NCBI GenBank assembly: GCA_025355875.1
Contig: JANXYV010000187.1
Coordinates: forward strand, 1 to 51,685
Source: Prolixibacteraceae bacterium
GTDB lineage: Bacteria > Bacteroidota > Bacteroidia > Bacteroidales > Prolixibacteraceae
Length of the DNA: 51,685 nucleotides
Direction: 5' to 3'
Shown: positions 24,083-26,016 of the stretch, one piece after another
Layout of the letters: each line of letters opens with the position of its first letter
How positions within the stretch are numbered: position 1 is the first letter of the stretch
Translations under genes and position numbers: made by a program
Notes under the pieces: generated by a model
Database searches by the model: none
Seen by the model: only the letters and a program-made list of their open reading frames with translations
Told to the model about the DNA's origin: nothing

Positions 24083-25171
24083 ATGAAAGCGTACAAATTA
24101 TTTACGCCTGAGAAGGTAGGTTCCATCGAAGTCAGAAACCGGTTGGTGATGTCGCCCATGACCCGCTGCCGGACCATCGGAAATGTGCCCAACGATTTAA
24201 TGGCTGACTATTACCGGCAGCGTTCGGGGGTAGGATTAATTATAACCGAAGGCGTGTCCCCTTCCGCCAATGGCCTTGGATACGCGCGTATTCCGGGAAT
24301 TTTCAGCAAGCAGCAAGTCGAAGGCTGGAAGAAAATAACCTCCGCAGTACATGAAAATGGAGGAAAAATTGTCATTCAGTTCATGCACTGTGGAAGGATC
24401 GCGCATCCGCTCAACATTCCTGAAGGGGCCGAAATTCTGGCTCCATCCGCTGTAAAACCAGCCGGACAAATGTGGACTGATGCTGCCGGAATGCAGGATT
24501 ATACGGTTCCGAAAGCGATGACTTCCGAAGATTTGGTGAGCACCAAAGCTGAATTTGTTACAGCAGCAAAGAATGCCATGGAAGCCGGATTTGACGGTGT
24601 TGAGCTGCATTCAGCCAATGGGTATTTGCTCGAGCAGTTCCTTTCGCCCATCAGCAACATCCGAACCGATCAATACGGGGGAAGCGTCGAAAATCGGTGC
24701 AGGTTTGTGCTCGAAGTAGCTGCTGCAGTAGCCGATACAATTGGCAAAGATAAAACGGGCATTCGGTTGTCTCCATACGGAGTGGCCAGCGATATGCCTC
24801 ATTACCCTGAAATTGATGCAACCTACCAGTATCTTTCGGAGCAGCTCAATAAGCTTGGTATCGCTTATATCCATTTGGTCGATCATTCGGCCATGGGTGC
24901 TCCGGAAGTTCCTTTAAACATCAAAAAACAAATCCGGAGTAATTTTAAAAATTCCGTCATTCTCGCAGGAGGTTACGAAATTGAAAGGGCAGAAGCCGAT
25001 ATTGAGAGCGATCTGGGCGATTTGATAGCTTTTGGCCGGCCATTCATCAACAATCCCGATCTGGTTGAAAGATTGGAAAACGGTTGGCCTTTATCCACTG
25101 ATCTGAATATGGATCAGTTTTATAGTGCCGACGAAAAGGGATATACCGATTATCCGGTTTACAAAGCGTAA
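24083..25171 (+). CDS. Old yellow enzyme family NADH:flavin oxidoreductase / alkene reductase
   Basis: This 362-residue TIM-barrel flavoprotein has PMTRCRT near the N-terminus (FMN contact) and the active-site block HSANGYLLEQFLSP with H176 and N179 binding the substrate carbonyl and Y181 as proton donor. NIRTDQYGGSVENRCRF and the FMN-phosphate segment ILAGGYE/IAFGRPFINNPDL follow. It reduces activated C=C bonds of enals, enones or nitro compounds with NAD(P)H. This is the NemA/OYE branch, cytosolic, without the extra domains of 2,4-dienoyl-CoA reductase. It is a single gene followed by a strong terminator. Confidence 0.93.
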   Translation: MKAYKLFTPEKVGSIEVRNRLVMSPMTRCRTIGNVPNDLMADYYRQRSGVGLIITEGVSPSANGLGYARIPGIFSKQQVEGWKKITSAVHENGGKIVIQFMHCGRIAHPLNIPEGAEILAPSAVKPAGQMWTDAAGMQDYTVPKAMTSEDLVSTKAEFVTAAKNAMEAGFDGVELHSANGYLLEQFLSPISNIRTDQYGGSVENRCRFVLEVAAAVADTIGKDKTGIRLSPYGVASDMPHYPEIDATYQYLSEQLNKLGIAYIHLVDHSAMGAPEVPLNIKKQIRSNFKNSVILAGGYEIERAEADIESDLGDLIAFGRPFINNPDLVERLENGWPLSTDLNMDQFYSADEKGYTDYPVYKA

Positions 25172-25184
25172 TTGTCAAAATAGA

Positions 25185-25230
25185 AAAAGTCCGGCGGGTG
25201 ATTTGAAAACAATCGTTCTGCCGGACTTTT
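25185..25230 (+). terminator. Terminator of the alkene reductase gene
   Basis: AAAAGTCCGGC (25185-25195) pairs with GCCGGACTTTT (25220-25230), 11 bp perfect, around a 24-nt loop. It begins 13 bp after the stop codon and ends in four Ts, and the A run on the other side would also let it work in reverse. Confidence 0.85.
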
Positions 25231-25273
25231 CATTTCCGGCGATTCATCCTTTTTTTGTTCCGGAATATAATCG

Positions 25274-25281
25274 TAATTTTG
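25274..25281 (+). promoter_or_regulatory. -7 element of the yhhQ transcript
   Basis: TAATTTTG matches TAnnTTTG. A TTG at 25255-25257 lies 16 bp upstream, shorter than ideal. Transcription would begin near 25287, just before the hairpin GCTTTC-TGT-GAAAGC and the riboswitch, leaving a leader of about 50 nt. Confidence 0.6.
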
Positions 25282-25287
25282 CCCCGA

Positions 25288-25335
25288 GCTTTCTGTGAAA
25301 GCCGTGTCCTTGGTAACCACGTAAAAAACAAGAAA
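25288..25335 (+). promoter_or_regulatory. preQ1-I riboswitch in the yhhQ leader (predicted)
   Basis: After a small hairpin (25288-25302), P1 is formed by CGTG (25303-25306) and CACG (25318-25321). The enclosed loop TCCTTGGTAAC contains CTTG (25309-25312), which pairs with CAAG (25329-25332) downstream to make the H-type pseudoknot. The A-rich linker TAAAAAA joins them. Loop and tail closely follow known preQ1-I aptamers (UAAC before the P1 3' strand, AAAAAAC in the tail). C25317 is the expected preQ1-pairing cytosine. The CAAG strand ends 3 nt before the ATG, so ligand binding should block ribosome entry. The downstream gene is a queuosine-precursor transporter, which supports the call. Confidence 0.85.
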
Positions 25336-26016
25336 ATGAAAAGAGAAGTATCTGTATTGTTTATGCTTGCAGGCATCTTATTTGCCACCTGTTTGTTGAT
25401 TTCCAACATCCTTGCCACCAAAATTTTAATGATCGGACCGTGGGCTGCCCCCGCCGGAGTTCTAATTTTCCCGATCGCCTACATCCTGAACGACGTGATC
25501 ACCGAAGTATGGGGATTCAGAAAAGCCCGGCTGATTATCTGGACAGGATTTTGTGTAAATATTCTGGCAGTGGTTTTTTTTACGGTCGGAATTGTGATTC
25601 CGGGAGCGCCATTCTGGCAAAACCAGGAAGCATTTGCCACTGTTTTGGGCAATACGCCAAGGATTGTGGTGGCCAGTCTGAGTGCCTATTTGATCGGTTC
25701 GTTCCTGAATGCGTTTGTAATAAGCCGTATGAAAGTGCTTACAAATGGCAAAGGTTTCTCCGGAAGGGCAATCCTGTCAACGGTGGTTGGCGAAAGCGCC
25801 GACTCATTGATTTTTATCTGCATTGCCTTTGCCGGTGTTTTTCCGATCGGAATACTGGTAACCATGATTTTTACCCAGGCGATGCTAAAAACCGTTTATG
25901 AAATACTGATCCTGCCGGTCACAATTTGGGTGGTTGGTTTTGTCAAAAGGGTGGAAGGAGTGGATGAATTCGACACCAACCTGTCCTATAATTGGTTCAG
26001 ATTGAAGGAAATTTAG
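25336..26016 (+). CDS. yhhQ: Queuosine precursor transporter, YhhQ/VUT (COG1738) family
   Basis: From the ATG at 25336 (MKREVSVLFMLAGILFATC) the protein has 226 residues and six hydrophobic helices. Family motifs are LLISNILATKI, GVLIFPIAYILNDVITEVWGF and the helix with GRAILSTVVGESADSLIF. COG1738 proteins import preQ0, preQ1 or queuine for tRNA wobble modification. A longer reading from a TTG at 25255 would run through the riboswitch and is rejected. The preQ1-I-like leader, and queC and queF 9 kb away, indicate preQ0/preQ1 as the most likely substrate. Confidence 0.92.
   Translation: MKREVSVLFMLAGILFATCLLISNILATKILMIGPWAAPAGVLIFPIAYILNDVITEVWGFRKARLIIWTGFCVNILAVVFFTVGIVIPGAPFWQNQEAFATVLGNTPRIVVASLSAYLIGSFLNAFVISRMKVLTNGKGFSGRAILSTVVGESADSLIFICIAFAGVFPIGILVTMIFTQAMLKTVYEILILPVTIWVVGFVKRVEGVDEFDTNLSYNWFRLKEI

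Follow-up and report, generated by a model that had tools for sequence, protein, structure and literature searches.

The leader of yhhQ, a queuosine precursor transporter gene of a Prolixibacteraceae bacterium, is very probably a class I type II preQ1 riboswitch that acts as a translational off-switch. It was studied within a window of 51,685 nucleotides (the whole stretch of DNA analysed), a contig that is part of a 5.18-Mb assembly. The assignment draws on the anatomy of the leader, its conservation and compensatory changes in relatives, its link to queuosine genes, and a distance of 0-6 nt between aptamer and start codon. The riboswitch class is not new, and the yhhQ leader joins it as a further member. 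What is possibly new is an order-wide branch that falls under the Rfam cut-off, has a capping hairpin 5′ of P1 in roughly half of its leaders, and has no Shine-Dalgarno (SD) sequence.

All features lie on the forward strand. From the preceding gene to the yhhQ ATG, they follow in the order TAATTTTG box, P0 hairpin, P1, loop, P1′, TAAAAAA, CAAG, AAA, and ATG. The box (25274-25281) fits the Bacteroidota -7 promoter consensus TAnnTTTG (PMC7366714). P0, GCTTTC-TGT-GAAAGC (25288-25302), is seen in the sequence and in the centroid fold and abuts P1 with zero linker. The aptamer core (25303-25332; 30 bases) was delimited by descriptor scans, the model R1 described below, and covariation. It consists of P1 (CGTG/CACG, 25303-25306 and 25318-25321), the loop TCCTTGGTAAC between the P1 strands (25307-25317), the A-rich L3 TAAAAAA (25322-25328), which ends in A ahead of P2, and the pseudoknot P2, formed by the complementary strands CTTG and CAAG (25309-25312 and 25329-25332). 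U25307 is the first base after the P1 5′ strand, and the specificity base C25317 lies directly 5′ of the P1 3′ strand. The parts named in an earlier note on this DNA all lie where the note put them, as both the sequence and the descriptor scans show.

The P2 strand CAAG ends 3 nt before the ATG of yhhQ (25336-26016; 226 aa), and an A-rich translation-initiation region (25323-25335) overlaps L3 and the P2 3′ strand. The yhhQ product scores 165.9 bits against Pfam Vut_1 (PF02592) and 107 bits against NCBIfam TIGR00697 (cut-off 50.95), which upholds its earlier identification as a queuosine precursor transporter. Both queC and queF also lie in the window, and the genome further has tgt and a PTPS/QueD-family gene. 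Upstream, after the preceding FMN-oxidoreductase gene, stands an inverted repeat (AAAGTCCGGC...GCCGGACTTT, 25186-25230) that is perhaps the terminator of that gene; the terminator scan has no entry for it, probably owing to its long loop.

The leader shows the features of class I: a P1 within 4-6 bp that is closed by G-C and followed by U, a loop-tail P2, and an A-rich L3. The types of this class reportedly go back to McCown et al. 2014. Type II is marked by AC before the P1 3′ strand and by no UU after the P1 5′ strand, as described in a 2024 review (PMC11625349). This AC is present in 132 of 132 distinct leaders, a set chosen by a model, and given the AC the preQ1-I assignment of the earlier note is refined, on sequence grounds, to type II.

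The case rests on relatives because the single sequence does no better than chance. The 82-nt leader folds no better than its shuffles (z = 0.03), and a strict descriptor finds one site on both strands of the window against a mean of 0.6 in 40 first-order Markov sequences. The aptamer structure alone is not rare; its place and its conservation exceed chance. At the gathering score, Rfam gives no preQ1 match in the window. The covariance-model check that had been proposed earlier fell short, with RF00522 scoring 13.9 bits on 25250-25345 (E 0.78; gathering cut-off 39), the lowest E-value among the three Rfam matches for this segment. Sub-threshold Rfam matches to McaS, snoU36a, DGCR5, and others look like chance. 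RF00522 also stays under its cut-off in all of 20 other loci, 16 of which have the yhhQ-type aptamer form, and throughout 295 genomes of the class and 393 of the order. Bacillus subtilis, the positive control, was the sole RF00522 positive among 14 control genomes. Because it was found in the same search, and because the comparative evidence is strong, the Rfam misses are read as a sensitivity limit of RF00522, whose cut-off is a database threshold and not a structural feature of the class.

Relatives of yhhQ were sought by protein, not by motif, in 199 related genomes, and their leaders were then fetched. The nearest relatives are mostly Prolixibacteraceae, in keeping with the Bacteroidota host proposed earlier. 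The search yielded 88 places that cover the greater part of the protein at 45% identity or more, along with a fragment of 33 residues (82%). Contig ends truncate three of the leaders (L015, L113, and G116:C29), which were left out. The aptamer is present in 85 of the 86 intact orthologue leaders (at least 45% identity), a count that includes L122 on the descriptor alone, L126 on a partial match to the model, L008 through a leader identical to L002, and the G116 fragment judged by eye. The one exception is L130 (45%), and two more distant homologues (L131 and L132; 43%) also lack the aptamer. This aptamer form is likewise absent from seven homologues of 46-50% identity (L059-L064 and L068), which come from Clostridia and Coriobacteriia (Clostridiales, Eubacteriales, Bacillota, Saccharofermentans, Olsenella, and Coriobacteriaceae). 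Since these and the distant homologues are without it, the link between aptamer and yhhQ holds within the order and not for the protein family. The order meant here is that of the genome search, Bacteroidales in GTDB; NCBI places Prolixibacteraceae in Marinilabiliales.

Both helices carry compensatory changes, which sustains the earlier reading of the leader as a preQ1-I aptamer. P1 was assessed in 134 helices (the 132 distinct leaders plus L122 and L126): 535 of 536 cells are paired, with 18 both-side changes against a mean of 1.2 in shuffles that ignore relatedness, none of 2000 reaching the observed value. Its forms are CGTG/CACG, CGAG/CTCG, AGAG/CTCT, AGTG/CACT, TGAG/CTCG, GGAG/CTCC, and GGTG/CACC, with TGAG/CTCT, which has one mismatch, occurring once. 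For P2, assessed in 127 helices after seven long-loop leaders were left out, 505 of 508 cells are paired and there are 4 both-side changes, again reached by none of 2000 such shuffles. P2 is nearly invariant, and its changes come from about three lineages (L203 with L206 of one genus, L122, and L208). Most leaders have CTTG/CAAG; the others have ATTG/CAAT, ATAG/CTAG, CTAG/CTAG, GTTG/CAAA, or GTTG/CAAG. Changes of the pseudoknot to UAG/CUA also occur in relatives. In the smaller alignment A3 (17 sequences), 99.3% of cells pair and two pairs have both-side changes; when the partners are slid, every measure falls, except that further pair types appear at +2. The conservation of P1 and of CTTG/CAAG in relatives, the other check put forward earlier, was thus confirmed, covariation included.

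The ligand pocket is conserved as well. The G-C pair closing P1, the U that follows, the AC before P1′, and the A before P2 are invariant in the 132 distinct leaders, which were model-chosen and for which the parser itself demanded the two C's. One of these is the specificity C (132/132, parser-required), which is also visible in the leader sequences themselves. In the numbering of Thermoanaerobacter tengcongensis (Tte), U25307 corresponds to U6, G25306-C25318 to G5-C16, and C25317 to C15. The base after the conserved U may be A, C, G, or T, and UU occurs in some relatives without being conserved. Because this base varies, the Tte C7 triple is not conserved. Seven leaders (L118, L119, L120, L123, L127, L147, and L207) have a longer loop of 13-15 nt and are without a simple fully paired P2. 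If one A-A mismatch is allowed, their P2 reads CYAG/CARG, which presumably resembles the Tte letters, and the seven are possibly a subtype closer to T. tengcongensis.

The distribution of the aptamer was surveyed with R1, a model made from the 17 distinct aptamers of A3, with P1 as its sole structure; leaders outside A3 served as test cases. Two MAFFT alignments (A1 and A2) were dropped because they misplaced P1 or P2 strands in divergent leaders. R1 matches 82 of 87 sources fetched through yhhQ (missing L122 and L130-L133) and all 9 sources fetched through the motif. At the source site (25300-25334) it scores 54.4 bits (E 5.2e-8), this aptamer being among the 17 of the model. The next-best match in the source genome has an E-value of 2.07, and the yhhQ site is the sole match below E = 1. 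Within the reach of R1, the earlier statement that queC and queF of this genome are without such a leader therefore stands.

Across the 393 order genomes, R1 gives 63 matches at E <= 0.01 in 55 genomes and 23 families (families counted by hand). The gene that follows is yhhQ in 52 cases, queC in 10, and queD in one, that is, a queuosine gene in 63 of 63. A BLASTP recheck of all 63 returned 50 yhhQ and 10 queC; L124 and L128 were too short for BLASTP and were assigned to yhhQ by position, at places found by protein. In the queD case (L151), TIGR03367 scores 71.9 bits on a 70-residue piece of a 110-residue protein, against a whole-protein cut-off of 89.25. The earlier proposal that only import is ligand-controlled may be kept for the source genome but not for the order, where the aptamer also precedes queC and queD. 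R1 has no match in the other 338 order genomes at these strict filters, under which weak copies go undetected: G122 and G127 were missed although the descriptor fits their divergent leaders, L122 and L126. In a sample of the phylum, R1 matches 2 of 306 genomes, both inside the order. In the class sample, none of the six matches from other orders (E 0.007-0.1) has an ORF resembling yhhQ, queC, or queF within 260 nt. L140-L144, L146, and L148 of that sample (E 0.007-0.1), with their re-fetched copies L209-L215, were rejected as chance, having no such ORF within 260 nt, while L145 and L147 are yhhQ leaders and were retained. As far as sampled, the branch appears confined to the order.

These results bear on whether a metabolite is sensed at all. 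The leader could instead be a conserved A-rich initiation element or a protein-binding site beside which the hairpin is incidental. Start regions in Bacteroidota are generally A-rich (PMC6847099), primary-sequence conservation is strong, and the stand-alone fold is weak, as this explanation would have it. It is nonetheless highly improbable, as both helices show compensatory changes, the pocket letters are invariant, and every R1 match lies at a queuosine gene. Moreover, in five queC leaders 67-167 nt separate the end of the match from the ATG, so that it cannot act as a start signal there.

The same five leaders (L166, L182, L198, L200, and L202) are relevant to the level of control. Their spacers hold predicted stems, with T-runs in three of the five, and attenuation of transcription is possible in them. 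As an explanation for yhhQ itself, attenuation in place of translational control is very unlikely: all 122 distinct yhhQ leaders place the end of the aptamer 0-6 nt from the ATG, which leaves no room for a terminator, and a sigma-70 promoter and terminator scan yielded nothing useful, with no terminator-like site in 25100-25400. The spacing in relatives matches the translational placement that the earlier note had deduced from the 3-nt distance in the source leader.

Which 7-deazaguanine is bound is a separate question. The same pocket might sense preQ0 or queuine, given that YhhQ reportedly favours preQ0 over preQ1 as its import substrate, that the type II Tte aptamer has an affinity for preQ0 just 17-fold lower than for preQ1 (PMC10622847), and that the aptamer also stands before queC, whose product is preQ0. 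Such a ligand is unlikely, since the class I aptamers of Tte and E. coli prefer preQ1 (PMC10622847), every class I type binds the same ligand according to a review, and the conserved U, C, and closing G-C are the letters of preQ1-I.

For a preQ1 switch of this build, we infer the ligand, the direction of control, and the occlusion step as follows. At low preQ1, the P1 hairpin would leave the A-rich tail single-stranded, and ribosomes would initiate on yhhQ. When preQ1 is present, it would pair with C25317 atop G25306-C25318, CTTG would pair with CAAG, and the A-run would dock along P1. The bound pseudoknot would bury the start region from -4 to -14, and synthesis of the importer would stop. 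The switch is thus likely to be the burial of start-region adenines by the ligand-bound pseudoknot.

The start region contains no Shine-Dalgarno sequence (25323-25335 of the yhhQ leader). In Flavobacterium johnsoniae, translation is high with A at -3, -6, -12, and -13 and low with pairing close to the start (PMC6847099). Here, these positions are 25333 in the spacer, 25330 in P2, and 25324 and 25323 in L3, each an A; across the 122 yhhQ leaders, A is found at -3, -6, -12, and -13 in 57, 70, 98, and 81%, respectively.

Upstream, the -7 box noted earlier recurs: 107 of 132 distinct leaders have TAnnTTYG no more than 55 nt before the aptamer, against a mean of 7.8 and a maximum of 14 in 100 shuffles. 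The transcript would start a few nucleotides downstream of TAATTTTG; with the promoter box close upstream, it would begin near the aptamer, and the start codon follows at once. The extra capping hairpin described earlier also has counterparts. In 68 of 132 leaders, 4 or more base pairs form a stem that leaves 0-3 nt up to P1 (30 shuffles: mean 22.4, maximum 32), with widely differing sequences, and the linker is exactly zero in 60 of 132. A fifth P1 pair occurs in 6 of 60 leaders with a zero-linker P0 and in 28 of 72 without one (Fisher P = 1.4e-4, a value that overstates the case because the leaders are related and the base beside P1 is already used by P0). These features agree with P0 capping a short P1 by stacking; it could equally well serve mRNA stability.

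Taken further, the leaders might form an SD-less preQ1-I branch, confined to the order as sampled, in which the ligand hides the adenines at -6 and -12/-13, bases favoured by Bacteroidota ribosomes, and a zero-linker P0 stacks under the 4-bp P1, stabilises it, and replaces the fifth pair. The aptamer's own L3 and P2 strand would then be the ribosome-docking site. This proposal is tentative, somewhat less likely than its converse, and SD-less burial and P0 are unproven as branch features. With the leaders, 23 families of a single order gain a queuosine regulon that goes unreported by the standard RNA library; it comprises yhhQ and at times queC or queD. They also offer a compact system for asking how a translational riboswitch works in Bacteroidota, a phylum with SD-less messages (PMC6847099).

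Known preQ1-I systems differ from the yhhQ leaders in several respects. Type II (RF00522; B. subtilis queC, T. tengcongensis) is alike in its H-type pseudoknot, short G-C-closed P1 followed by U, AC before P1′, A-rich L3, ligand C, loop-tail pairing, and association with queuosine genes. Here, however, the source leader scores 13.9 of the 39 bits, the tail has no SD, P0 accompanies about half of the leaders, and P2 is mostly plain CUUG/CAAG. In E. coli, a type III preQ1-I switch governs yhhQ. It is likewise a class I aptamer at the yhhQ start site with translational control; its P1 5′ strand is followed by UU, its loop is rich in pyrimidines, and its tail has an AAGG Shine-Dalgarno (PMC10622847). 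In contrast, the branch has U-N (U-C in the source), a CUUG loop, and CAAG-AAA-ATG in an A-rich, SD-less start region; the source leader shows neither UU flanking P1 nor an AAGG tail. Type I shares the class I pseudoknot but has UC before P1′ and UU after P1. A 2013 survey described preQ1 switches as mostly limited to Firmicutes (PMC3766115), and types I and II were reported in Bacteroidota by the 2024 review (PMC11625349). Among open-licence papers, none was found on a yhhQ leader in Bacteroidota.

At E <= 0.01, RF00522 gives 13 matches in 11 of the 393 order genomes; ten loci were examined and three matches left out. Seven of the ten (L216, L217, L219, L220, L222, L224, and L225) are type I-like leaders (GACAGTTCG...ATCCTGTC, aptamer near 1501-1549) that score 25.5-30.4 bits and precede a queC 37-39% identical to that of the window. 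L221 and L223 look like chance, and L218 was placed in neither group. The type I-like queC leaders are a separate branch, and the order thus holds two preQ1-I branches, both under the Rfam cut-off.

Type I-like hairpins were also seen before yhhQ homologues. Upstream of the Clostridial and Bacillota homologues L059, L062, and L068, hairpins resemble type I, with TTC or TTA after P1 and no Rfam gathering match. Descriptor hits in these three and in L133 were rejected, being not of the present form and looking like type I. L133 (175-221) belongs to a yhhQ homologue of 34% identity whose genome (G034) is of the same family; its leader is type I-like and scores 21.1 bits with RF00522, and two switch types may thus serve the same gene family.
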